Of a DNA stretch of 64,000 nt, positions 8,801-55,690 are shown piece by piece. The stretch lies in assembly GCA_028871345.1 (NCBI GenBank), contig JAGWNK010000008.1, forward strand, positions 1 to 64,000. Direction: 5' to 3'. The position numbers and the translations under genes are program-made. Positions within the stretch are counted from its first letter, which is position 1; each line of letters begins with the position of its first letter. The notes under the pieces are model-generated. The model had not been told where the DNA came from, did not search any database, and worked only from the letters and a program-made list of their open reading frames with translations. This DNA is from Alphaproteobacteria bacterium (GTDB lineage Bacteria; Pseudomonadota; Alphaproteobacteria; Micropepsales; Micropepsaceae).

Positions 8801-11165
8801 GACCTATGACGACTTGCTCGACAAGCGCCAGTTGGCCGCCCAAGGCATCAATGTGATCCGCTATCGGCGTCAGCGGACACATGGCCGAAACATGATTGTG
8901 TCGTCGACATCGGAACTGCGCATCCTGCAGGTCTTGGTTCGGCGGCGGCTCGCAGAATTGAGCCTGGGACTCCCCGACGAACGGCTCTCAGCGCTGGCAC
9001 AACGGATGATTGACGATGCTTGCAGCATTTCGGGCGATATCGTTCTGCGCGCTGCGAAGCGTGGTGTATCGGCGGGTGAGCTCATCGGGTTGGTCTTAAG
9101 CCGTGCGTTGATCGCCGAGGAGTTCGGTGCGCAGGCGACGGTTGCCTGGTTCTTACTGGATGACTACGCGGAATGGCTTGGTCAGCGTGAGCAAGGGATT
9201 GCGGATATTCTGGCGCTGAGCGTAGGCCGGGATGCCGGTGGCGCCACAACCTTGCGCGCGGTGGTGACCGAGGCAAAGTATGTCGGCTTGGACGGGGCAG
9301 CCGAGGCACGACGGACCTCCAAGCAGCAGCTTCGCCACACCGTCCAGCGCATCGAGGAGGCGCTGTTCGGTGATCCCGGACGATTGGATCGGGATTTGTG
9401 GCTTTCGCGGATCGCCGATTTGCTGCTCGATGGGACGACGGCGCTGGGCCAGTCGGATGCGCTGGAAGCGGTGCGGGACGGCATCCGTCAAGGCGTCACG
9501 ACCATCGACCTTCGCGGATATTCTCATATTTTCATTTCTGGGCTTGCTGAACCGGCGGGTTCCGGAGAGCAGGAACCGATCCCCGATGTGCCGCACGGGC
9601 TGCAGGAGATCTTCACGCGTGAAGATTTGCGCAATCTTCTCAAAGCCTATGAGGCTCGGACAGCGCTGGCCGGTTTGCGAAGGGGATTGGGTGAGCAGCA
9701 TCCTTGGGAAGAAACCGAATTTCGCAGCCCCGCGCCGAGAGTGAACTGGACCAGCCAGCTTGAAAGCACTGCGGGTTCGGGTGGCGCCGCGGCACCGAGG
9801 CCAAAGCCGGGTCCGCGGGGCACGCCGAAGGCGACGAAGGCGCTTGAGCCAAAAGTTGAGCCCGCTGAAGCCGAACCTGCGTCTGCCGAACAGGCCGAAC
9901 AGGTCGAACCGGCAGCCGAAGCCGCCGATACGCCAAAACCGGAACAAGGCCGAGACATCGCGTCGTTGATCGAGGCGCGGGCGCTGCAGCGGTCTTCGGT
10001 ATCCGAAGCTGAAGGGTCCTGGCTCGATGGCACGGCGCAGAAGTTGCGCACCGCATTGTTGGGATACGGGTTGCAGGCGAAGATTCTCGGCACGCGTCTG
10101 ACGCCGAACGCGGCGCTGATCCGGTTCATGGGCTCAGATCGACTCCGGGTGGAAGATATCGAGTCCAAGCAGTCGGCGCTTCTGACGACGCACGGTCTTC
10201 GCCTCGTTGCGATCTCGCCCTTGCCGGGCGAGATCGTCGTCGCGGTGGCGCGTCCGCAACGCCAGACCGTATCTTTGTGGGACGTGTGGGCGCGGCGGGA
10301 GTTGAACCGCAACGCTGCCGGTTTGAACACGTCATTCGTGGTGGGCTTGCGCGAGCTTGATGGAGAGATTCTTTATCTCAATCTCGGCTCGGCCTTTGGC
10401 GGCGCCCAGCAACACGAGCCGCATACCCTGGTTGCAGGCGCGACGGGTAGTGGCAAGTCGGTGCTTATCCAGGGTCTTATTCTCGATATTGCCGCGACCA
10501 ACTCGAGTGCGTTGGCACAAATCATCCTGATCGATCCCAAGCTGGGGGTCGACTACGCCGCGGTCGACCGCCTACCTCACATTCCGGGCGGTATCGTCGT
10601 TGATCAAACGCGCGCGAAGGAAGAACTCGAACGCCTCGTGGGCGAGATGGAGCGGCGTTATGAGCTTTTCCGTGCGCATAGCGTTCGCGACCTGAGAGCC
10701 TTCAATGTCGCGGTAGCTCCAGCCGATCGCTTGCCCATGTTGTTTCTGGTCCACGACGAATTCGCAGAATGGATGTTGACGGAAGACTACAAGGAAGCCG
10801 TGGCGGCAAATGTACAGCGCCTGGGTGTAAAGGCCCGCGCAGCGGGCATTCATCTCATCTTCGCGGCGCAACGCCCTGACGTGAACGTCATGCCAATGCA
10901 ATTGCGGGACAACCTGGGCAACCGGTTGATCTTGAAGGTGGCCAGCGTCGGCACCTCTGAGATCGCTCTGGGTGTGAAAGGTGCGGAGTCGCTATTGGGC
11001 CTTGGCCATTTGGCGGCGCGGCTCAATGGTGAGCCCGGTATCGTCTTTGCCCAAGCGCCATTTCTATCGGACGAGGATATAGAGCGCGCTGTGGAGGCGA
11101 TCATTCACGGCGATGAGAATGCCGCCCGAGAAGCCGGCGAACGCGAGGTTGTGCCCGCGGTGTGA
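5811..11165 (+). CDS. sspH: PT-dependent restriction protein, SspH/DptH-like HerA/FtsK translocase
   Basis: This 1784-residue protein ends in a HerA/FtsK-type motor: Walker A at 1543-1550 (GATGSGKS) and Walker B at about 1644-1650 (LFLVHDE), followed by an AAQRPD sensor-like strand. A proline/alanine/glutamate-rich linker covers roughly residues 1325-1390. Before it, D1132 (DILALSV) and E1154-x-K1156 (VVTEAKYV) are arranged like a PD-(D/E)xK nuclease core. The N-terminal 1000 residues are unassigned. DptH-type proteins are the helicase/translocase of the FGH restriction complex. The start ATG overlaps the stop of the G gene, indicating coupled translation. It converges on the sspD operon with only 47 bp between stops. 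Confidence 0.8.
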   Translation: MNASELLGAVGAASLRERLTNESEGDGLARFMLDRLTGQQVAAVVQALLLDAETAKKVKIAVPRDLVAAFGLPESVITDERTVALRHAECDRPALLLANTDDDQGASLQDVTLLGAKQLTEEPRLWVEAAAAGLGLPESQLEIWQAALRGLAAAEDWTLHQVSNYVELTRRVIADDSKPLLEALGWALPALQLPRDSGYFLAIRAKDQALPARWKKLFDKLVTDRRPLLLKQRPPRQLIEAEELRTQFETVRDDIPPAAHATIEAFINAPPSWRDEAAALAELEWEADGVLQVFSGLRQKKTSLAEETIQFFEFELPDRLSDIDKEYLKQLKESKSHKEPRDDDRDFFEAHREELGQDRSLRAKWERFIFGRPIECTDLLEGLLRALERLYGQAGALGAVRSLEIRTTRRTKAQWLELNADVATSFAVRYRGLPALMGGAVKWDTSHLFEYEALLEAASRRKKYKRNVSVSRTSLQIKLDITLKIGDGALADRTTVQLIWMGRPDGIGLELRDDLDRLLKRPLTRSSVARQPVSRKGSLQSVSLSDVATLQPAYRQDSGSLIPKSDPAYDVGRQFPKALKAAANGRLSGESAAAVGAAWESFAAAYATAIEGWRQNGLADPALLVQAEHYGALLRALGQHAPGDLNRQELWEPVLSLGCVAVTGGAPSAIIAPWHPLRLAASTVKARSVAGLAAHLLTAEQINFGDSRLFFADLRAELAHPFYPEVAVGYHGAEPVLLAETSTLNDYSLMERPVRDPAEAATDVDPREAAGQIRGLLERYLDLQPHERSNLSIMLYNCDAAGLPFATVNALGSVHDEDEMHCNVLVRHRDRPKLNRIYKELLEGSEADPDALVVSETSRNFMSKLRIGVMLDGGATPSADYRSVDLAFLHDVVSRQAKEAWFSVPASATAPNLLDHVPARWSYRRVTAEDELKATNYLACPRQPAAGWAYLDAIADVVRRQSHGANEHVLPARQISFQDQGLKAMFDEVHGLAEWVATYDDLLDKRQLAAQGINVIRYRRQRTHGRNMIVSSTSELRILQVLVRRRLAELSLGLPDERLSALAQRMIDDACSISGDIVLRAAKRGVSAGELIGLVLSRALIAEEFGAQATVAWFLLDDYAEWLGQREQGIADILALSVGRDAGGATTLRAVVTEAKYVGLDGAAEARRTSKQQLRHTVQRIEEALFGDPGRLDRDLWLSRIADLLLDGTTALGQSDALEAVRDGIRQGVTTIDLRGYSHIFISGLAEPAGSGEQEPIPDVPHGLQEIFTREDLRNLLKAYEARTALAGLRRGLGEQHPWEETEFRSPAPRVNWTSQLESTAGSGGAAAPRPKPGPRGTPKATKALEPKVEPAEAEPASAEQAEQVEPAAEAADTPKPEQGRDIASLIEARALQRSSVSEAEGSWLDGTAQKLRTALLGYGLQAKILGTRLTPNAALIRFMGSDRLRVEDIESKQSALLTTHGLRLVAISPLPGEIVVAVARPQRQTVSLWDVWARRELNRNAAGLNTSFVVGLRELDGEILYLNLGSAFGGAQQHEPHTLVAGATGSGKSVLIQGLILDIAATNSSALAQIILIDPKLGVDYAAVDRLPHIPGGIVVDQTRAKEELERLVGEMERRYELFRAHSVRDLRAFNVAVAPADRLPMLFLVHDEFAEWMLTEDYKEAVAANVQRLGVKARAAGIHLIFAAQRPDVNVMPMQLRDNLGNRLILKVASVGTSEIALGVKGAESLLGLGHLAARLNGEPGIVFAQAPFLSDEDIERAVEAIIHGDENAAREAGEREVVPAV

Positions 11166-39201: not shown

Positions 39202-40047
39202 TCAGCGCTTCAGTTTGCTGATAAGCCCGTCGAGCTGTTCCAGGGTCTTGTAGGAGATGCGGACCTCGCCGCCCTTATCCCCTTTGTGTGAGATCTGAAC
39301 TTTGAGCCCTAACATATTGGAAAGACTATCTTCCAGGTCCCGGATGTTCGGGTCTTCCACAGGTGCCTTGTGAATCTTTGGTTTCTTGGCCGCGGAGCGG
39401 TGCTCGGCCTCGCGCACATTGAGGGCACCCTCGACGATCTCCTTGGCCCGTGCCTCGGCATCGGGCAGGCCGACCAGTGTGCGGGCATGGCCCGCGGTCA
39501 ACCGGCCGTCTCGCACCATGACCTTCACGGGCTCTGGCAGCTTGAGGAGCCGCAGGGTGTTGGCGACATGGGGGCGGCTCTTGCCGACCTCGCCCGCCAG
39601 CTTCTCCTGGGTGTAGCCGAAACGGTCCATCAGCTCCTGATAGGCCGAGGCCTCTTCGATGGCGTTGAGGTCCGCGCGCTGGATGTTCTCGATGATGGCG
39701 AGTTCGAGGGCTTCGCCGTCCGACAGTTCGCGCACCAGGACCGGCACGTCGTGCAGCTTGGCCGCCTGGGCGGCGCGCCAGCGCCGCTCGCCGGCGACGA
39801 TCTCGAAGGCGTCGGTTTGCCCGGCCACGGGGCGCACCAGGATCGGCTGCAGGATGCCCTTCTCCTTCACCGATTGGATCAGGTCGTTGAGATCCTCGTC
39901 GGCGAAGCGCTTGCGCGGCTGGAAACGGTTGGGGCGCAGGAATGCCGTCGGCACGGTGCGCGAGCCGCGCCCGGCGCGCGGTCCCTCCTCGCCGATTAGG
40001 GCCGAGAGTCCGCGGCCCAGGCCGCGATGACGAAGTTCGTCTGCCAT
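39202..40047 (-). CDS. parB: Chromosome partitioning protein ParB
   Basis: The product is 281 residues from the ATG at 40047, six bases after GGGGAGG; an ATG at 40065 that overlaps the parA stop is the alternative. It has an LGRGLSALIG N-terminus, the ParB nuclease-like CTPase domain (about 35-125, with GERRWRAAQ), a helix-turn-helix (YTQEKLAGEVGKSRPHVAN), and a dimerisation C-terminus. It spreads from parS sites, two of which lie nearby at 41.4 and 43.4 kb. Confidence 0.97.
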   Translation of the reverse strand: MADELRHRGLGRGLSALIGEEGPRAGRGSRTVPTAFLRPNRFQPRKRFADEDLNDLIQSVKEKGILQPILVRPVAGQTDAFEIVAGERRWRAAQAAKLHDVPVLVRELSDGEALELAIIENIQRADLNAIEEASAYQELMDRFGYTQEKLAGEVGKSRPHVANTLRLLKLPEPVKVMVRDGRLTAGHARTLVGLPDAEARAKEIVEGALNVREAEHRSAAKKPKIHKAPVEDPNIRDLEDSLSNMLGLKVQISHKGDKGGEVRISYKTLEQLDGLISKLKR

Positions 40048-40061
40048 GCTCGCCTCCCCGC

Positions 40062-40871
40062 TCATGCGGCCGCCCGCGTGCGCTCGCGCTGGATCAGCTC
40101 TCCGGCCAGTTTGATGTAGGCCTGGCTGCCGGGGCAGCGCAGATCATAGACCAGCGCCGGCAGGCCGTGGCTCGGCGCTTCGGAGATGCGCACGTTGCGC
40201 GGAATGACGGTGTTGTAGACCTTCTGCCCCATGTGGCTGCGCACGTCGGCCGCCACCTGATCCGACAATTTGTTGCGACGGTCGAACATGGTCAGCACGA
40301 TGCCCTGGATTTCGAGCGACGGATTGAGGTTTGCGCGCACCAGCTCGATGGTGTTGAGGAGCTGCGTCAGTCCTTCCAGCGCAAAGAACTCGCATTGCAG
40401 CGGCACCACGACGGCATCGGCGGCCACCATGGCGTTGACGGTGAGCAGCGTCAGCGACGGCGGGCAATCGATCAGCGCATAGGAATATGGCGATGATCCG
40501 TGTGCGGAGTATTCTTCCAGCGCTTCCTTCAGTCTCTGGTTGCGCCGCTCCACGCCGATCAGCTCGAGCTCGGCGCCGGACAGATCGACCGTCGACGGCA
40601 CGATGGCGAGCTTGGGAATGCGCGTCGGCTTGATGGCTTCGGCGAGCCTCGCCTGCCCCATCAGCACATCGTAGATGGAAACCTCGCGCTCGCTTCTCGG
40701 GATGCCGAGGCCGGTGGAGGCGTTGCCTTGCGGATCGATGTCAATGACCAGCGTGGGCTCGCCGACGGCCGCGAGCGCCGTGCCGAGGTTGATGGCGGTG
40801 GTGGTCTTGCCGACCCCGCCCTTCTGATTGGCGACAACCAGGACGCGTGGCCGGCGAGGTTCATGGGGCAT
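40062..40871 (-). CDS. parA: Chromosome partitioning ATPase ParA
   Basis: About 269 residues from the ATG at 40871; a TTG at 40877 is nine bases from a GGAGG and is also possible. The deviant Walker A K17-GGVGKTT, the A' IDIDPQGNAS and the GLTQLLNTI region mark it as a Soj/ParA ATPase. It positions ParB-parS complexes after replication. It overlaps the rsmG stop by 11 bp. Confidence 0.97.
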   Translation of the reverse strand: MPHEPRRPRVLVVANQKGGVGKTTTAINLGTALAAVGEPTLVIDIDPQGNASTGLGIPRSEREVSIYDVLMGQARLAEAIKPTRIPKLAIVPSTVDLSGAELELIGVERRNQRLKEALEEYSAHGSSPYSYALIDCPPSLTLLTVNAMVAADAVVVPLQCEFFALEGLTQLLNTIELVRANLNPSLEIQGIVLTMFDRRNKLSDQVAADVRSHMGQKVYNTVIPRNVRISEAPSHGLPALVYDLRCPGSQAYIKLAGELIQRERTRAAA

Positions 40872-41502
40872 GGACAAGATCCCGGACCTCCAGGACGACC
40901 CCGGAAGGGTGCGTCAAGCTCGGATGCTGTTGGACCTTCATCCTCCAAGATTTAGGGACCTCGGTCAATTCAGCCCCCACATTTTGCCCCTTGAGAAACA
41001 GGCAAACCGTCCTTGGCGCGGCGAGAACTTGTGCATATTCAAGGAGCTGGCGCAACGGTGCGCAAGCGCGGGCGGTGACGACGTCGAAGGGTCCCCTCGC
41101 CCGTTCGATGCGTTCGTTGCGGACGTCCACGTCGAGTTTCATGTGCCGGGCCGCGGCTTCCAGGAACTCCGCTTTTTTGCGGATCGATTCGAACAGCGTC
41201 ACCCGGACCCGGCCCTCCAACAGCAAGGCCAGGACCAGGCCGGGGAACCCCGCCCCGCTGCCCAGATCCGCCAATGTCCCGGCTTCCGCCGGAACGAAGG
41301 CCGCGAGCTGGGCGCTGTCGTAGATGTGGCGGTGCCAGACCTCATCCAGCGACGCTTGTGAGACCAAATTGTGCCGGGCGTTCCAATCCGTCAGCACGCC
41401 GACATAAACTTTCAGCCGCGCCAATGTTTCACGTGAAACCGGCAGGGCCGCCGCAAACTCGCTGGGGCCGAACCCTTCAGGCCACCTTTCGGGATTTGAC
41501 AT
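40861..41502 (-). CDS. rsmG: 16S rRNA (guanine-527-N7)-methyltransferase RsmG
   Basis: The product is 213 residues with a SAM-binding [16 protein letters not shown] loop and the family segments [22 protein letters not shown] and [10 protein letters not shown]. It methylates G527 of 16S rRNA. Its 5' end overlaps mnmG by 26 bp. A parS-like palindrome is embedded in codons for VSRET at residues 22-27. Confidence 0.95.
41425..41440. promoter_or_regulatory. parS site 1 (inside rsmG)
   Basis: TGTTTCACGTGAAACC matches the parS consensus palindrome GTTTCACGTGAAAC perfectly in its 14-bp core. It lies about 1.4 kb from parB and is a binding and loading site for ParB. Confidence 0.92.
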
Positions 41503-43357
41503 GCGCGAGCACCAGGGTCAGCGCCGCCGGCGTGACGCCGTCGATGCGCGAAGCTTGTCCGAGGGTGGCCGGGCGGATCGCCCCCAGCTTTTGCGCCGCC
41601 TCGGTCGAAAGGCCGTTCACGGCGCGATAATCGATGTCGTCCGGCAGCCTCAACGCTTCATCGCGGCGGAATGCCAGGATGTCGGCCTCCTGACGGCCCA
41701 GATATCCGGCATAACGGGCGTCGATTTCGAGCTGTTCGACCACGTCGGCCCGCATCTCTGCCAGCTCCGGCCAGATCGCCGTCAACACGGCGAAGTCCAC
41801 GCCCGGAAGACCGAGAAGATCGTGAGCCGACCGCCGGGTACCGTCCAAGCGGATCGCGATGCCGTGCTTCTGGGCTTCGTTGGGCGTCAGGCTGAGATGA
41901 TGCATGCGGGTCCGGGCCTTTTGGAGCGCCGCGGCTTTGGCGGCAAAGGCTTCGGACCGGGGCTTGCCAACGATTCCGGCGCGCGCGAACAACGGCGTCA
42001 GGCGCTGGTCGGCATTGTCGGCCCGCAGGCTGAGACGGTATTCGGCCCGCGATGTGAACATGCGGTAAGGCTCGGAGACACCTTTGGTCACCAGGTCGTC
42101 GATCAAGACACCGATATAGGCCTCGGTGCGGTCCAGCACGACGGGGTCCTGGCCACCGGCGGCACGCGCAGCATTGAGCCCGGCCATCAGTCCTTGGGCC
42201 GCTGCCTCCTCATAGCCGGTGGTGCCATTGATCTGGCCGGCGAAATAGAGCCCCGCGACACGCTTGGTTTCCAGCGACGGCTTGAGCTCGCGCGGGTCCA
42301 CGAAATCGTACTCGATGGCGTAGCCGGGCCGCAGCATGTGGACGCGTTCGAGGCCGGGAATGGTGTGGAGCAGGGCGCTTTGTACGTCCTCGGGCAAGGA
42401 GGTCGAGATGCCGTTGGGATAGATGGTGTCGTTATCCAGGCCTTCCGGTTCCAGGAAGATCTGGTGGCTGTCGCGGTGGGCGAAGCGCACCACTTTGTCC
42501 TCGATGGACGGGCAATAGCGCGGACCAAGGCTCTCGATCTGACCGGAATAGAGCGGCGCTCGGTGCAAATTGGCCGTGATCAGGGCGTGGGTGGCAGCCG
42601 TCGTCCGGGTAATGGCGCAAGCAATCTGCGGCGTTGTGATGGCCCGGGTCAGGAAAGAAAAGGCAGACGGCGGGTCGTCACCTTTCTGAACCTCCAGGCT
42701 CGCCCAATCGATAGTCTTGCCGTCGAGACGGGCCGGCGTGCCAGTCTTGAGCCGCCCCATGGCAAATCCCAGCCCATACAAGGTGTTGGAGAGGCCCATC
42801 GCGGGGGCCTCGACTCGATCACCTTCGAACCGGTGTTGGCCGGCAATGGCGCGGCCGGCAGGAATCTTCCGCTCGCCGCAATGGATCAGGCCTTTGAGAA
42901 AGGTGCCGGTGGTGAGGACCACGGCAGTAGCGGGCAGGGCGGTGCCCTCAGCTGTCCTCACGCCTGCGACCCGGCCGTCTCGCAGGATCAGGTCCTCGGC
43001 GGCGGCCTCGCCGATTTCCAAGCCTCGCGTCTCTTCGAGCGCCGCCTGCATGGCCTGCCGATAAAGCTTGCGGTCGGCCTGGGCCCGCGGTCCGCGCACG
43101 GCGGGGCCCTTGCGCTGGTTGAGCAGCCGAAACTGGATGCCGGCGGCGTCGGCCACCCGGCCCATCAGGCCATCGGCGGCGTCGATCTCGCGGACGAGGT
43201 GGCCTTTGCCCACCCCGCCGATGGCAGGGTTGCACGACATCTCGCCCAAGGTGGCGCGCTTGTGGGTGAGGAGGAGGGTTTTGGCGCCGGCGCGCGCAGA
43301 GACCGCCGCAGCTTCGCAGCCGGCATGGCCTCCTCCGATCACGATGACGTCGAACAT
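41477..43357 (-). CDS. mnmG: tRNA uridine 5-carboxymethylaminomethyl modification enzyme MnmG
   Basis: The product is 626 residues from the ATG at 43357 ([17 protein letters not shown]), which places the FAD-binding GxGxxG at the start; an open frame to 43420 is not conserved. Signature blocks include [10 protein letters not shown] and DGLMGRVAD. With MnmE it modifies the wobble uridine of several tRNAs. The mnmE-mnmG-rsmG-parA-parB order is widely conserved. Confidence 0.97.
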
Positions 43358-43399
43358 AGCCGTTCCATAGGGGAGGGCAGGGACGGCCGCAAGCGCCGA

Positions 43400-43415
43400 T
43401 GTTTCACGGGAAACA
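43400..43415. promoter_or_regulatory. parS-like site 2 (between mnmE and mnmG)
   Basis: TGTTTCACGGGAAACA differs from the consensus core in one base (G for T at position 10). It sits in the 59-bp gap upstream of mnmG, two kilobases from site 1. Confidence 0.75.
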
Positions 43416-43416
43416 A

Positions 43417-44736
43417 TCACTTCCCGATGCAGAAATCGCGGAAGATCACGTCCAGCAAGTCCTCGACGTCGACCTGGCCGGTGACCCGGCCCAAAGCCCG
43501 CAAGGCCAGGCGCAGATCTTCGGCAAACAGCTCCGGTTCGCGCGCCTCGACCGCCCGCTCCAGGGTGGCGGCAGCCTCTTCCAACGCCGCCCGGTGCCTG
43601 GCCCGGGTGATGACCACCGCTTCGCCCGGACGCTCGAGGCAGTCACGGGCCTGCGCCGTCAGGGCCGCGACCAGGGCATCCAACCCTTGGCCTGTCTTCA
43701 GCGAGATCGCTAGTCCTGAACGCCGTTCAGGCCATGGCAAATCAGCTTTGTTCCAGACTACCAAACACTGTTCATTCTTCACCATGTTTTCCGGCAAATC
43801 ACGCCGCGGATCGAGCGCGCTGCCGTCCAACAGAAGCAGTACAAGATCGGCCGCCTCGGCCCGCCCCAGGGCCCGTCGCACGCCTTCCGCTTCGACGGCC
43901 TCAAACACCTGCCGCAGCCCAGCGGTATCGGCCAGGGTCACGGGATAGCCGCCAAAATCGAGGCGCACCTCGATGACGTCCCGGGTCGTGCCGGCCGTTT
44001 CCGAGACGATGGCGACGTCGCGGCCCGCAAGGGCGTTGACCAGCGAGCTCTTGCCGGCATTGGGCGGGCCCAACACGGCCACGAACAGCCCGTCGCGCAC
44101 CAACTCGCCGCGCCGCCCATCCGCCAGCTGCCCCGTGATCGCCCGAAGCGTCCGGACGGTCTCGGCCCTGGTCCTTTCCAGCATATCGGCGGGCAGTTCT
44201 TCCTCGGAAAAATCAATCGCCGCCTCCGCCCAGGCCAGGGTCTGGAGCAGCGATTGCCGCCATTCTTCGATCAGACTGCCGAGTGCGCCGCCAAATTGCC
44301 GCAGGGCTTGGCGCCGTTGCGCCTCGGTCTCCGCATCCACCAGGTCGGCGATGGCTTCGGCCCGAGTCAGATCGAGCTTGCCGTTCTCCACGGCCCGGCG
44401 GGTGAATTCGCCTGGTTCCGCCAAGCGGCAACCGGGCAGGGCACGCAGCGCTGCCAGCAAGGCTTCGACGACCGCGCGCCCGCCATGGACATGCAGTTCA
44501 ACCAGATCCTCGCCCGTGTAGCTCGCCGGCCCAACGAACCACAGGCACAAGGCGCGATCGATCAGGGCGCCGCCGGCCGCCAAATCCCGCAAAACCGCCC
44601 GCCGCGGCTTCGGAAGGCCTTTGTAAGTCAAAGACTTGAGTACGTCCGCCGCCTGCTTGCCGCTGACCCGGATGACCGCCACGCCGGCCCGCCCCAACCC
44701 GCTGGCCAGGGCAAAGATGGTATCTTGATGCTTCAT
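43417..44736 (-). CDS. mnmE: tRNA modification GTPase MnmE
   Basis: The product is 439 residues from the ATG at 44736 ([13 protein letters not shown]). It has the N-terminal folate-binding domain, a helical domain with a GTPase insert (G1 [10 protein letters not shown]2 AGTTRD, G3 DTAG, G4 NKAD), and the terminal CIGK that carries the modifying cysteine. Its start overlaps the stop of the DUF6489 gene (ATGA). Confidence 0.97.
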
Positions 44737-48245: not shown

Positions 48246-49217
48246 ATGAAAGCCATCCGTTTCGCCAAGACCGGCGGTCCCGAAGTCCTCAGCTACGAAA
48301 CCATCGCCTTGCCGCCGCCCGGCAAGGGCGAAGTCCGTGTGCGCCATACCGCCATCGGCGTGAACTTCATCGACATCTATCACCGCTCTGGACTCTACGC
48401 GGTGCCGCTGCCGTCGGGCCTGGGGCGCGAGGCTGCCGGTACGGTCGAGGCGGTGGGCGAGGAGGTTGCGACCTTCAAACCCGGCGACCGCGTCTGCTAC
48501 TGCACCGGACCGATGGGCGCTTATGGCGAAGCCAACAATGTGGGCGTCGAGGCGCTGCTCAGGTTGCCCGGTTTCATCAGCGACGAGGTGGCCGCCGCGG
48601 CCTTGCTCAAAGGCATGACGGCGCAATACCTGTTGAAGCGCACCTTCGCCGTCCAGAAGGGCCAGACCGTCCTGTTTCATGCGGCGGCGGGCGGCGTCGG
48701 ACTGATCGCGGTGCAGTGGGCCAGACATCTCGGCGCCCGCGTCATCGGCACGGTCGGCTCCGACGACAAGATCGAGCTCGCCAAGGCCAACGGCTGCTGG
48801 CAGGTCTTGAACCTGCGCCAGGATGACTGGGTGGCCAAGGTGCGCGAATGGACGAATGGCGAAGGCGTTCCGGTGGTCTACGATTCCGTGGGCAAGGACA
48901 CCTTCGCGGGCTCGCTCGATTGCCTGGCAATCCGCGGCATGCTGGTCAGCTTCGGCAATTCCTCGGGCGCCGTGCCGACCTTCGAGCCGGCAATCCTCAG
49001 CGCCAAGGGCTCGCTGTATCTCACGCGCCCGACACTGTTCCATTATGCGCGCCCGCCCAGGGAACTGCAGGAGACGGCCGATGATCTCTTCGCGGTGATC
49101 AAGTCGGGCGCCGTCAAGATCATGGTCAATCAGCGCTTCGCGCTGGCCGAGGCCCGCGCCGCGCATGAGGCCTTGGCCTCGCGCCAGACCACGGGGGCGA
49201 CGATCCTAATTCCTTGA
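48246..49217 (+). CDS. NADPH:quinone oxidoreductase (zeta-crystallin type)
   Basis: The product is 323 residues, a zinc-independent medium-chain dehydrogenase. It has the MKAIRFAKTGGPEVL start, the VNFIDIYHRSGLY segment, and a NADPH-binding AAGGVGLIAVQWA loop. It reduces quinones, one electron or two, with NADPH. An ATG at 48237 is an alternative three codons upstream. Confidence 0.93.
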   Translation: MKAIRFAKTGGPEVLSYETIALPPPGKGEVRVRHTAIGVNFIDIYHRSGLYAVPLPSGLGREAAGTVEAVGEEVATFKPGDRVCYCTGPMGAYGEANNVGVEALLRLPGFISDEVAAAALLKGMTAQYLLKRTFAVQKGQTVLFHAAAGGVGLIAVQWARHLGARVIGTVGSDDKIELAKANGCWQVLNLRQDDWVAKVREWTNGEGVPVVYDSVGKDTFAGSLDCLAIRGMLVSFGNSSGAVPTFEPAILSAKGSLYLTRPTLFHYARPPRELQETADDLFAVIKSGAVKIMVNQRFALAEARAAHEALASRQTTGATILIP

Positions 49218-49277
49218 GTTTATTGATATTATGCCGCCAGTTTACCGCCCAGCATTAAAGCTGGTAATCTAGCTGGC

Positions 49278-49484
49278 ATGAATGACATGCGCAAAATCAC
49301 GGTGGAAGTTCCAGAACAAGATCTGGAAAAAGCGCAGGCCTTCACCGGCCAAGGCGTCACTGAAACCGTTCGGGCAGGTTTGAAAAAACTCGCATCAATC
49401 AGGGCACAACAGGAATTGCGCAAACTTCGCGGGAAAGTGAAGTTCTCGATGAGCCTCGATGAGCTGCGCTACGACGACGAATGA
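49278..49484 (+). CDS. VapB-like antitoxin
   Basis: The product is 68 residues. The N-terminal RKITVEVPEQDLEKAQAF segment looks like a ribbon-helix-helix binding domain and the C-terminal half (about 40-68) is a toxin-binding tail. Its stop overlaps the PIN toxin start by 4 bp. The upstream 60 bp is A/T-rich and contains a short CCAGC/GCTGG inverted repeat that could be the operator. Confidence 0.85.
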   Translation: MNDMRKITVEVPEQDLEKAQAFTGQGVTETVRAGLKKLASIRAQQELRKLRGKVKFSMSLDELRYDDE

Positions 49485-49855
49485 TCGCGTGTGATACAAG
49501 TTCACTTGTTGCGTATCTACAAGGCGAAGACGGACCTGACATCGACAAGCTCGATCACGCATTAGCGGCAGGTGAACTCGTTTTGCCGCCTGTTGTGGTG
49601 ACAGAAATTCTCAGCGATCCTGCATCACAGAATGCACTGGCAGCCGCACTGCCGGACGTCAAAGTCCTGGATTTGCCCGATGGATTTTGGGCGCGCGCAG
49701 GGTTCTCACGGCAAACGCTCAAACAGCACGGCTTGAAATGCAAGATCGGTGACACATTGGTCGCCCAATCTTGTATCGATCACGACATATCTCTGATCGC
49801 CCGCGACGGCGATTTTCGGCACTTCGCAAAGTACTGCGGGCTGAAACTCGCTTGA
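49481..49855 (+). CDS. VapC-like PIN-domain toxin
   Basis: The product is 124 residues with D5 (CDTSS), E42 (VTEIL), D91 (IGDTLVA) and D109/D111 (ARDGDF), the acidic PIN centre. It is a ribonuclease toxin paired with the antitoxin just upstream. It is a different subfamily from the toxin at 1709 and belongs to the chromosome, not the island. Confidence 0.9.
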   Translation: MIACDTSSLVAYLQGEDGPDIDKLDHALAAGELVLPPVVVTEILSDPASQNALAAALPDVKVLDLPDGFWARAGFSRQTLKQHGLKCKIGDTLVAQSCIDHDISLIARDGDFRHFAKYCGLKLA

Positions 49856-52568: not shown

Positions 52569-53573
52569 TCAGTTCCTCGCCATGCCGCAGTTCCGGCAAT
52601 CGGGCGCACAGGCCCGCACCGGCGCCTCGCCGGCCAGCCGCTGCGTGATCACCGCGGCCAGTCCGCCGATGAAGTCGGGATGTGCGCTTACCGTGGGTAC
52701 CCTGAGATAGTCCTTCACGCCGGACTCCTGCGCGAGCCTGCCGTATTCGATATCGAGCTCGACCAGGGTCTCAGAATGCTCGGAGACGAACGAGATCGGT
52801 ACCACGATCAGCCCTTTGCCCTCTGCCCCGGCCCGGCGGATCTCCGCGTCGGTCGAAGGGCCTATCCACTTCAAGGGGCCGACCCGGCTTTGGTAGCAGA
52901 CTTGGGCATCGACGCCCGTCAGGCGCTCCGCCAGCGCTGCCGCCGTCTGTTCCACCTGCCGCTGATAGGGGTCGCCGCGGGCAATGATCCGCTCGGGCAG
53001 GCCGTGGGCTGACAGCAGCAAACGATAGGTCACGTCGGGCCGGGCCTTGGCCATGGTCTGGCGCGTCAACGACTCCAGGGCGGTGATGAAGCCGGACTGG
53101 GTGGGATAACAGCAGATTGTGCCGCTGGGCGCGGTGATGCCCGCGGTCTGCGCGGCGCGCCCCCAGTCTTCAAGCGACGAACGGGATGTGGTGGTCGAAT
53201 ACTGGGGGTAGAGCGGCAGCAACACGACGCGGTCCGGCGCCCAGGCCGCCACGGCCCGTGCCGCTTCGTCACTGAAGGGCTTCCAGCAGCGCATGGCGAT
53301 GAAGGCCCGCGCTTCATGCCCGGCGAGCGCCGTTTCCAGGGCCCGGGCTTGCGCCTGGGTTTCCTCGAGGATGGGCGAATGCCCAGCGATCTTGGCGTAT
53401 ATCTCCCGTGCTACGGGTGCGCGCCGCGCGGCGATGAAGCGCGCCAAGGGCCGGCGGATCAGCGCAGGCATCGGCAGGATGGCAGGATCGCTGAACAGGT
53501 TGCGCAAGAATGGCTCGATGGCGTCCGGCGTGTCGGGTCCGCCAAGATTGAACAGCACGACGGCCAGTCTCAC
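52569..53573 (-). CDS. hemH: Ferrochelatase HemH
   Basis: The product is 334 residues from a GTG at 53573 that overlaps the hemE stop. It has the LFNLGGPDTPDAIEPFLRNLF block and SAHGLPERII with the metal-binding histidine. The C-terminal CAPDCRNCGM cysteines suggest a [2Fe-2S] cluster as in several bacterial ferrochelatases. It inserts iron into protoporphyrin IX. Confidence 0.95.
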   Translation of the reverse strand: MRLAVVLFNLGGPDTPDAIEPFLRNLFSDPAILPMPALIRRPLARFIAARRAPVAREIYAKIAGHSPILEETQAQARALETALAGHEARAFIAMRCWKPFSDEAARAVAAWAPDRVVLLPLYPQYSTTTSRSSLEDWGRAAQTAGITAPSGTICCYPTQSGFITALESLTRQTMAKARPDVTYRLLLSAHGLPERIIARGDPYQRQVEQTAAALAERLTGVDAQVCYQSRVGPLKWIGPSTDAEIRRAGAEGKGLIVVPISFVSEHSETLVELDIEYGRLAQESGVKDYLRVPTVSAHPDFIGGLAAVITQRLAGEAPVRACAPDCRNCGMARN

Positions 53574-54592
53574 GAGCTGCCCCGCACCAGCGCAATCAAC
53601 TGTTCCACATGGGCGATCGGCGTTTCCGGCAGGATGCCGTGGCCCAGATTGAAGACGAGCCGGCTGTTGCGCCCGGCCTCCAGGATTGCGGCCACGCCGC
53701 GGGCCAACGCATCGCCGCCTGCCAGCAGGGCCAGGGGATCGAGGTTGCCTTGCAGGGCCACGTCGTCGCCCAGCTTCTCCGCCGCCCAGCCCACGGGGAC
53801 GGCCGTATCCAACGACACCGCGTCCACCCCCGTTTCGCGGGCATAGCGTTCCAGCCCTGCCAGGGTGGCGCCGCGCGGAAATCCGATGATCTTCGCTTCG
53901 GGCAGGACGGCGCGCACCGCGGCCACGACCCGCGCGGTCGGACGCACCACCCAGTCCTTGAAGCCTTGCGGGGTCAGACCGGAGGCCCAGCTGTCGAAGA
54001 TCTGCACGGCGTCCGCCCCCGCCTGCAGTTGCCCCACCAGATGCCGGCTCACCGCATCGACCAGAACGTCTATCAGCTTAGCGAAGCCGGCAGGATCACG
54101 ATAGGCCCACAGCTTGGCCGCCTTCTGCTCGTCGCCCCCGCCGCCCGCCGCCATGTAGGTGGCCAGCGTCCACGGGGCGCCGGCAAAGCCGAGCAAAGCC
54201 GTGTCCGCTCCAAGTGCCGGGCGCACCAGGCGCAGAGTTTCATAGGCCGGCGCCAGCGCCGCCGCCCATGCCTCGTGCGCGCGCTCCAAACCTTGCGTAG
54301 ATGTGATCGTCGGCAGTTTCGGACCGTCGTCGAAAGCGACCTTCAGGCCCAGCGCTGCCGGCACGGTCAGGATGTCCGAGAACAGGATGGCCGCGTCAAA
54401 GCCAAAACGCCGCACCGGCTGCAGAGTCACTTCCGCTGCCAATTCGGGCGTCTGACACATCGTCCAGAACGATCCTGCCTTCTTCCGCGTTTCCTGATAC
54501 TCGGGCAGATAGCGTCCGGCCTGGCGCATCATCCAGAGCGGCGGCGGCACAAAGTTCTTGCCGGAAAGTACACCGATGAGACGGCTCGACAA
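53570..54592 (-). CDS. hemE: Uroporphyrinogen decarboxylase HemE
   Basis: The product is 340 residues from a TTG at 54592, placed by a TAGGAG eight bases upstream. The substrate-binding start PPLWMMRQAGRYLPEY is present, as is GFAGAPWTLATYM. It converts uroporphyrinogen III to coproporphyrinogen III. It heads hemE-hemH-hemJ and flanks the candidate replication origin. Confidence 0.96.
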   Translation of the reverse strand: MSSRLIGVLSGKNFVPPPLWMMRQAGRYLPEYQETRKKAGSFWTMCQTPELAAEVTLQPVRRFGFDAAILFSDILTVPAALGLKVAFDDGPKLPTITSTQGLERAHEAWAAALAPAYETLRLVRPALGADTALLGFAGAPWTLATYMAAGGGGDEQKAAKLWAYRDPAGFAKLIDVLVDAVSRHLVGQLQAGADAVQIFDSWASGLTPQGFKDWVVRPTARVVAAVRAVLPEAKIIGFPRGATLAGLERYARETGVDAVSLDTAVPVGWAAEKLGDDVALQGNLDPLALLAGGDALARGVAAILEAGRNSRLVFNLGHGILPETPIAHVEQLIALVRGSS

Positions 54593-54868
54593 TTCAAGAC
54601 TCCTAGATACTTAAGATTCTGAAGGTGGTGTTTGTCTTGTGGATTGTGGACCAGTCGGGGAGTGCCTTTTCCTGTAGGATGAAATGCGAGCAGACTCAAG
54701 GATATCGGCTTTGGACGCTTTGTGGGGTCGGCGAACCGGGCGGTGAAAAGCGGTGACTCGATCTGTTGCAGGCGCCCACAGTTTGAACACGGCAACGGCT
54801 TCAGGGCATAGTCGCCCCCGTTTGGTGGATGAAATGCGAACCATGGTGGACGGAACGGGAATGGATCT
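54593..54868. other. Candidate chromosomal replication origin (hemE-ppsR gap)
   Basis: In Caulobacter and Rickettsia the origin lies between hemE and the gene named RP001, a DUF299/ppsR homologue. This gap has the same flanks, with genes diverging from it. It contains two DnaA-box-like sites in tandem (TGTGGATTG 54638-54646 and TGTGGACCA 54645-54653; both 2 or more mismatches from TGTGGATAA), and two exact 13-bp direct repeats (GGATGAAATGCGA, 54677-54689 and 54827-54839). I see no CtrA site with two TTAA halves and no obvious A/T-rich unwinding element, so the call rests mainly on synteny. It also holds the hemE and ppsR promoters. Confidence 0.5.
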
Positions 54869-55690
54869 GTGAGCGGGCCGTTTCACCTGCATCTCATTTC
54901 GGATGCCACAGGCGAAACGCTCCACGCCGTGGCAAAGGCGGCGCTGGCGCAATTCCAGGGCGTCACGGTGCACGAACACTCCTACACCCTGGTACGCAGC
55001 GAGCGGCAATTGCTGCGTGCGGTGGATTACATCCGCGATCATCCGGGCCTGGTGCTCTTCACCGTCGTCAATCAGAAGCTGCGCCACGAACTGGTGGCGC
55101 AATGTGCTCTGATGTCGGTGCCGAATTTCGATCTCATGGAAGGCCCGGTGGGCCTCATGCAGCGCTATTTCAACACGCCCATGACGGCGCGTCCCGGCGG
55201 CCAGCATGAGATCGACCAGAAATATCTGCAGCGCATCGAAGCCCTGAACTACACCATCCAGCACGACGACGGACAGGACCTCGACGATCTGGCGGAGGCC
55301 GAGGTCATCCTGGTGGGGGCCAGCCGCACTTCGAAGACGCCGACCTGCGTCTACCTCGCCATCCGCGGCATGCGTGCCGCCAACGTCCCGCTGGTTCTGG
55401 GCATGCCGCCGCCGGCAGTGCTTCTCACTTACACAAAGCCGCTGATCGTGGGATTGTGGGCGTCGCCCGAGCGCTTGGTACAAATTCGCCGCAACCGGCT
55501 TGCCACCATGGGCGCCATGGGCGAAACCGACTATGTCGACCTTGAGAAGGTCCGCCACGAGGTCATGGAGACACGTCGGCTCTACGAACAGCGCGGCTGG
55601 CCTTCGATCGACGTCACGCGCCGCTCGATCGAGGAGACGGCGGCGCAGATTCTCAATCTCCTCTCCGAACGCAAGGGAGAGACGGAATGA
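54869..55690 (+). CDS. ppsR: Pyruvate, phosphate dikinase regulatory kinase/pyrophosphorylase (PSRP, DUF299)
   Basis: The product is 273 residues from a GTG at 54869. It has the family's LHLISDATGETL start and the P-loop-like GASRTSKTPTCVYLA. These proteins phosphorylate PPDK or PEP synthase with ADP and reverse it with phosphate. Its homologue RP001/CC0001 marks the origin in other alphaproteobacteria. maf follows with a 4-bp overlap. Confidence 0.92.
   Translation: MSGPFHLHLISDATGETLHAVAKAALAQFQGVTVHEHSYTLVRSERQLLRAVDYIRDHPGLVLFTVVNQKLRHELVAQCALMSVPNFDLMEGPVGLMQRYFNTPMTARPGGQHEIDQKYLQRIEALNYTIQHDDGQDLDDLAEAEVILVGASRTSKTPTCVYLAIRGMRAANVPLVLGMPPPAVLLTYTKPLIVGLWASPERLVQIRRNRLATMGAMGETDYVDLEKVRHEVMETRRLYEQRGWPSIDVTRRSIEETAAQILNLLSERKGETE

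Follow-up and report, generated by a model that had tools for sequence, protein, structure and literature searches.

The question raised by this locus is where an alphaproteobacterium of an uncharacterised genus begins to copy its chromosome, and whether the gap between hemE and ppsR is that place, as the original prediction proposed. The window, i.e., the whole stretch of DNA analysed, comprises bases 1-64000 of a 105,402-bp contig (C34) in a 3.91-Mb genome that is assembled in 113 contigs and is 99.94% complete. The gap and its flanking genes are the following:

54593-54868, no strand: hemE-ppsR intergenic gap, 276 bp, proposed chromosome origin (oriC), delimited by Pfam matches on its flanks; G+C 0.536 against 0.646 in the window
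53570-54592, minus strand: hemE, uroporphyrinogen decarboxylase (PF01208, E 2.4e-106)
54869-55690, plus strand: ppsR, alias RP001 or COG1806, kinase-pyrophosphorylase (Kinase-PPPase; PF03618, E 2.6e-87)

With a probability of about 0.9, this gap serves as the chromosomal origin, which would be of the hemE-ppsR type known from alphaproteobacteria. We infer initiation within it from its location, the gene order, the sole parS-like sites of the genome lying nearby, a conserved module that is single and linked to ppsR, and the axis that base composition indicates in three complete relatives. By Pfam, the genes to the left are rho, UPF0093 (hemJ-like), hemH and hemE, and those to the right are ppsR, maf, coaE and secB. 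The predicted flanks, hemE on the minus and ppsR on the plus strand, and the predicted gene order are thereby borne out, and both are shared with the hemE/COG1806 origins described for Caulobacter, Rickettsia and other alphaproteobacteria (PMC1914354). Position beside hemE or COG1806/ppsR is among the origin criteria of that source, which does not require all of them to hold together. A+T enrichment is another, and is evident in the gap relative to the two references used, the window and the contig (G+C 0.659). At 276 bp the gap is shorter than the more than 400 bp given for R. prowazekii and C. crescentus (PMC1914354).

The surroundings also contain a partition locus:

39202-40065, minus strand: parB (PF02195, PF17762)
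40062-40877, minus strand: parA (PF13614)
41425-41440, plus strand: parS-like site, 1 mismatch
43400-43415, plus strand: parS-like site, 1 mismatch

The expectation that parAB and two parS sites would lie 11-15 kb away holds for the genes, identified by Pfam 13.7-15.4 kb leftward of the gap, and for the sites, 11.2-13.2 kb from it, with the qualification that each site deviates at one position. At up to 2 mismatches the genome has no parS-like site besides these two, and shuffled sequences contained none. Both lie inside, and near the 5' ends of, ORFs that read by eye as gidB-like (40861-41502, minus strand) and mnmG-like (41477-43420, minus strand), respectively. Among 22 hand-chosen relatives, with distances computed by hand, parS is 9.7-18.5 kb from the conserved module (18 of 19 in the genus) or from ppsR (3 of 3 in sister genera), i.e., in 21/22; in the exception, G253, module and parS are on separate contigs. 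The sites of G016 carry 2 mismatches. Since 6/22 relatives also have a 2-mismatch site elsewhere and a reversed control pattern matches in four, single 2-mismatch sites mean little.

Conservation within the gap is concentrated at its hemE end, where the following elements were recognised:

54591-54658, plus strand: conserved 68-bp module of the origin, made up of boxes and a presumed unwinding element (model R1, E 4.5e-11)
54589-54618, no strand: AT-rich stretch of 30 bp (30% G+C), where unwinding is presumed to begin
54598-54602, no strand: GANTC (CcrM-type methylation) site 1
54615-54619, no strand: GANTC site 2
54616-54633, plus strand: three-base-periodic tract (ATT CTG AAG GTG GTG TTT), an eroded copy of the genus repeat ATGATGAAGATGATG that departs from the strict DnaA-trio pattern
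54638-54646, minus strand: DnaA-box-like site 1, CAATCCACA, 2 mismatches to TTATNCACA
54645-54653, minus strand: DnaA-box-like site 2, TGGTCCACA, which differs at 1 position from the Caulobacter G-box TGATCCACA (as given in PMC4285127)
54693-54701, plus strand: second conserved motif GACTCAAGG, with GANTC site 3 (genus alignment)
54755-54759, no strand: GANTC site 4

In the 24 other same-genus genomes first drawn, ppsR is always present (24/24) and hemE adjoins in 20. Aligned with the window's own, these gaps read AAGACTCCTA(GAATC) - TAAGGATGATGAAGATGATG - TTAGGGC - TGTGAATTGTGGA on the hemE side. The module consists of two GANTC sites, an AT-rich stretch, a three-base-periodic tract and tandem TGTGGA cores. 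A sequence-only model of 66 positions, R1, was built from 26 genus elements with the window's own excluded. Applied to the own 3.9-Mb genome, where 150 of the 612 candidates from a first look were scored, it matches at positions 54591-54658 (E 4.5e-11) and nowhere else at E<=10. Conservation among close relatives, a further criterion of PMC1914354, is seen in the genus at large: exactly one match at E<=0.001 occurs in 66 of 69 genomes, namely the own genome, the 24 G-handle genomes that fed the model and 41 of the 44 others. The three without a match (G229, G231 and G238) have no ppsR match either, and most likely lack the ppsR contig.

Of the 41 R1-matching genomes whose elements had not entered the model through G handles, 26 had their locus checked. 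In all 26 the start of ppsR comes 146-234 bp after the module, and hemE adjoins in 19, one of the other seven (L182) ending at the contig end. Two loci taken from named records, L033 and L034, did feed R1 and may be of the same species as two of the checked genomes; the module of L206 is identical to that of L033. In L008, L009, L017 and L024 hemE does not adjoin either, and the gene beside the module reads by eye like hemH. Because the module is kept before ppsR where hemE is not adjoining, it tracks ppsR and is not merely a hemE leader.

At E<=0.001 R1 matched 0/13 sister-genus genomes, and in a small search two of the 12 sister genomes with ppsR gave weak matches (L282, E 1.6e-4; L283, E 0.088); by eye, sister genera show a similar layout in other letters. 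Class-wide, 77/190 genomes (the own and two more of the genus among them) match at E<=0.1. Most of those outside the genus are chance-level hits, but the two best of them, in G137 and G068 (E about 5e-4), are next to hemE. The R1 model is thus close to genus-specific, in which the module differs from the other hemE/COG1806 origins. A score for "WWG units plus box", devised after viewing the sequences, reaches the 95% shuffle level in 27/27 genus gaps forward and 1/27 reverse; since the class difference is small (37/78 forward vs 27/78 reverse), the layout is claimed for the genus only. Of the 110 loci collected, 88 have hemE adjoining; unit and motif scoring used 105 (L032, L071, L091, L093 and L103 left out), and GANTC counts used 87 of the 88, with L032 dropped as a copy of L007 and L034 set apart.

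Beyond the boxes, GACTCAAGG extends to the nearly palindromic TCAAGNNCTTG at 8/9 or better in 15/27 genus gaps, the window's own not among them, compared with a mean of 0.9 and a maximum of 3 in mononucleotide shuffles. In the class the longer form occurs in 12/78 gaps (shuffles: mean 3.6, maximum 8), with a Bradyrhizobium-type form CTCAAAGGCTTGCGCA; examples are L005, L018 and L022, and L059, L063 and L087. It is possibly the binding site of a protein. Caulobacteraceae gaps, for their part, show GGCTCAAGCC on the hemE side (by eye).

All 21 genus gaps with adjacent hemE, the own included, have GANTC in their first 150 bp; together these gaps hold 51 sites vs 13.6 (sd 3.9) in shuffles, although they are related sequences and hence not independent cases, and four control patterns are not enriched. 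In the class, 47/65 gaps contain GANTC, with 76 sites vs 46.4 (sd 6.1) in shuffles. The window's gap holds 4, vs 0.58 expected from the window (P 0.003), a number also reached by 29/1000 composition-matched gap shuffles and elsewhere in the window by stretches of the same length. A CcrM-like enzyme is encoded in the genome, with a RAMA-domain match (E 1.1e-19) inside a 363-aa ORF that by eye carries DPPYNLQL. Enriched sites and an encoded enzyme are what a CcrM-methylated origin would have, and methylation of the gap is a prediction. Because GANTC sites of the Caulobacter origin are already on record (PMC3973325), this is an extension and not a discovery. In Bradyrhizobium- and Rhodopseudomonas-type loci (L059, L061-L065, L078, L080, L087, L089) no hemE lies within about 3 kb upstream of ppsR, and by eye these loci keep a GANTC cluster (e.g., AAGAATCTTAGATTCTTAAGG followed by GAGTC) ahead of a box that resembles GTGGATTG.

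The same features might be read as gene regulation, the conserved stretch doing no more than supply hemE and ppsR with divergent promoters and leaders, with GANTC serving CcrM/GcrA-controlled transcription and the origin lying elsewhere. Both the module and the AT-rich stretch at 54589-54618 do overlap the hemE start and AGGAGTCTT, the probable hemE ribosome-binding site, and the overlap with the hemE start would by itself conserve part of the module; CcrM methylation of GANTC is also recorded to affect transcription in Caulobacter (PMC3973325). Yet the module still stands 146-234 bp before ppsR where hemE does not adjoin (6/25 testable loci, and also the four with the hemH-like neighbour), parS and the skew axis coincide with the gap, and a consensus scan, which is weak evidence, found no sigma-70-like promoter in 54300-55200, so that this reading is very unlikely. 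Five other 30-bp stretches of the window equal or undercut the 0.30 G+C of the one at 54589. A small ORF at 49481-49855, PIN-domain (VapC-type)-like by eye, sits next to an AT-rich stretch at about 49200-49500.

Base composition bears on the polarity of the chromosome around the gap. Cumulative GC skew was tried as an origin locator on the own contig, G007 and G002, and was set aside as weak and contradictory: on the own contig (105 kb) the best V falls at 54,500, but only 40-65 kb is testable, G002 (260 kb) is mildly in favour and G007 (320 kb) is not supportive. In the complete genus genomes G215, G243 and G244, sampled by 20 windows of 20 kb each, raw GC skew at the site agrees in G215 (p 0.021), is slightly negative and not significant in G244 (p 0.79) and is reversed in G243 (p 0.9986). 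Because raw GC skew in the relatives is weak and of mixed sign, GC skew alone would not have settled the origin position. At third codon positions, the T-over-A skew of leading genes exceeds that of lagging genes at the site in 6/6 data sets; the difference is small in the own genome (0.033, on a short contig) and in G002 (0.030), and its permutation p is 0/2000 in G215, 0.006 in G243 and 0.0065 in G244. Gene-corrected GC3 skew is positive in 3/6 data sets and negative in 3/6 (own, G243, G244). At hemE-ppsR it is reversed in G243 (two-sided p 0.0025), reversed without significance in G244 (p 0.0985) and of the usual sign in G215, and the T/A polarity is the same in G243:C1 and G244:C1 (L222-L261) and G215:C1 (L262-L281). 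GC polarity seems to differ within one genus.

When the skews are combined, the axis has its peak at the site in two of these genomes, G215 and G244, whereas in G243 it is displaced by 125-250 kb; the composition axis is supported at about 0.25-Mb resolution. As regards the GC-skew shift listed in PMC1914354, the relatives' axis and the T/A skew agree and GC polarity is mixed. The polarity of the origin rests on T/A skew, gene orientation and parS, with a small leading-strand gene excess (0.50-0.58). Strand-biased 5- to 8-mers yielded no shared motif and no usable signal (6- to 8-mers trained on one relative and tested on another).

The position of dnaA could be taken to suggest a different polarity, in which replication starts near dnaA and hemE-ppsR lies near the terminus. 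In the own genome dnaA is on another contig, with a transposase-like ORF (by eye; L147:4046-5416) just downstream; in G215, G243 and G244 it lies 0.28-0.35 Mb from the point opposite hemE-ppsR, and the GC3 polarity at the site is terminus-like in G243 (two-sided p 0.0025), with a non-significant tendency the same way in G244 (p 0.0985). This arrangement is nevertheless extremely unlikely, as T/A skew, gene orientation and parS have the opposite polarity, the skews become smaller in size in 3/3 of these genomes when the origin is placed at dnaA, and a dnaA away from ori has been reported for Rhodospirillales and Sphingomonadales (PMC8116508).

The hemE-ppsR origin remains the preferred reading in spite of what the gap lacks. 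The DnaA-box-like sites offered as a clue lose their force, in that three sites at 2 mismatches from TTATNCACA are present and 255/1000 shuffles reach three. The admitted weakness, the lack of clear consensus boxes, is real: TTWTNCACA at 0 or 1 mismatch does not occur in 54593-54868, the consensus box TTATNCACA being one of the PMC1914354 criteria. It is no strong objection, because the Caulobacter origin Cori itself relies on weak DnaA boxes (PMC4468827). At 54638, two TGTGGA cores are spaced by seven bases, an unusual arrangement that 0/1000 shuffles of the gap reproduced; the pattern was picked post hoc after viewing the sequence, and with the looser core TGTGG the window has one further such pair, at 10276. 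The original prediction had also pointed to 13-bp direct repeats:

54677-54689, plus strand: 13-bp direct repeat GGATGAAATGCGA, copy 1, not clearly conserved
54827-54839, plus strand: 13-bp direct repeat GGATGAAATGCGA, copy 2

The repeat is there, and an exact 13-mer repeat arose in only 1/1000 dinucleotide shuffles. A role as iteron was rejected, conservation not being clear in the genus alignment, where by eye the repeat is at best partly retained in the nearest species. The gap resembles C. crescentus Cori in its hemE-COG1806/ppsR position, weak DnaA boxes, GANTC and nearby parS (PMC1914354, PMC4468827, PMC4285127, PMC3973325), and differs from it, and from the CtrA/IHF-controlled Cori subtype, in having no CtrA site (TTAA-N7-TTAA) at <=2 mismatches and no IHF site (WATCAN5WTR) at <=1 mismatch. 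Against an origin there are thus the missing consensus DnaA, CtrA and IHF sites, the mixed GC polarity, the small leading-strand excess and the overlap with the hemE start.

Three-base-periodic tracts beside DnaA boxes bring to mind the basal unwinding system (BUS; PMC8287927, PMC10721633), which in B. subtilis is composed of DnaA-boxes, spacer and DnaA-trios. The module shares with it tandem co-oriented box-like sites, a short spacer and a three-base-periodic tract, and differs in the trios themselves. Over 53 genus elements, the own included, 3'-TAG-5' is by the published search rule the commonest trio (90) vs 5 for the BUS consensus 3'-GAT-5'; read as units, 5'-ATG accounts for 117/265 and TAG for 8. 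In the 27/65 class gaps that score well, TTG (39) and TAG (37) lead among 135 units. Three or more NAN trios, the published search rule, are found in 33/53 genus elements, and the window's own tract has at most 1, and so falls outside the BUS definition of at least 3 trios set off from the box by a spacer of up to 16 bp.

This erosion raises the thought that in this species alone the origin in the gap has decayed and another site has taken over. Its tract has at most one consecutive NAN trio where 33/53 elements have at least three, and its R1 score of 44.2 bits ranks 52nd of 66; the whole module still matches at E 4.5e-11, however, and parS is close, with no other copy at <=2 mismatches, which leaves such a decay an almost negligible probability.

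The unusual trios invite comparison with DnaA itself. In B. subtilis, Asn187 of DnaA contacts the middle adenine (PMC10721633). By alignment, the corresponding position is Arg218 in the own DnaA (numbered by hand); it is Arg in 5/5 genus DnaA (own and L294-L297) and Asn in the sole sister-genus DnaA compared (L298 of G257, in whose origin the units look by eye to be of the TGG/TAG type). The GGRDHTT motif, which belongs to the box-reading domain IV of DnaA, is intact. The genus proteins (own L147:2320-3774 and L294-L297) carry DLQHICRSTATASEFLYT where most aligned DnaA have a DIQFLAGKExTQEEFFHT-like stretch, and the alignment points to strong divergence of this region within the AAA+ domain. 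Origin melting might have been re-coded in the genus, the DnaA-gripped strand offering 3'-TAG/GTA-5' instead of 3'-GAT-5' and DnaA having changed alongside, with an Arg donor that may now read a keto base, but we regard this as unlikely. Elsewhere the Asn187 position is variable (Tyr in Paracoccus, Phe in Sphingomonas, Trp in rhizobia, Gln in E. coli), the comparison covers a single sister, the register in which the repeat is read is ambiguous and the own tract is eroded. An apparently exclusive co-variation of DnaA residue and repeat weakened as more DnaA proteins were added; because the position varies so widely, a specific residue-repeat pairing is a hypothesis only.

In the proposed mechanism, DnaA-ATP would bind the tandem weak boxes at 54638-54653, and a DnaA filament would grow from there to the left, along a single strand of the adjacent stretch (about 54596-54633), which is AT-rich and three-base-periodic. 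The filament would melt this stretch, helicases would load and forks would depart both ways, after which ParB on the parS sites 11-13 kb leftward would move the copied origins apart. New and old origins may be told apart by CcrM methylation of the GANTC sites that lie within the unwinding stretch and next to it. In E. coli oriC, GATC sites lie inside the 13-mer unwinding stretch; the module likewise has methylation sites within the presumed unwinding stretch, with GANTC/CcrM in the place of GATC/Dam.

In all, this is an ordinary, well-supported alphaproteobacterial origin without recognisable CtrA/IHF sites and with a genus-specific presumed unwinding sequence. Among the titles and abstracts listed by searches that covered few subscription papers, none describes a GANTC-plus-trio module in Alphaproteobacteria, which is no proof of absence from the literature. 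The finding places the origin in an uncharacterised genus and provides, in the 66-position R1, a means of finding it in fragmentary assemblies (41 of 44 non-training genomes). It is also a case in which searching for consensus DnaA boxes would fail to find the origin. If it is true that the repeat and the base-reading residue of DnaA co-vary, the class would offer natural variants for testing the strand choice of DnaA.
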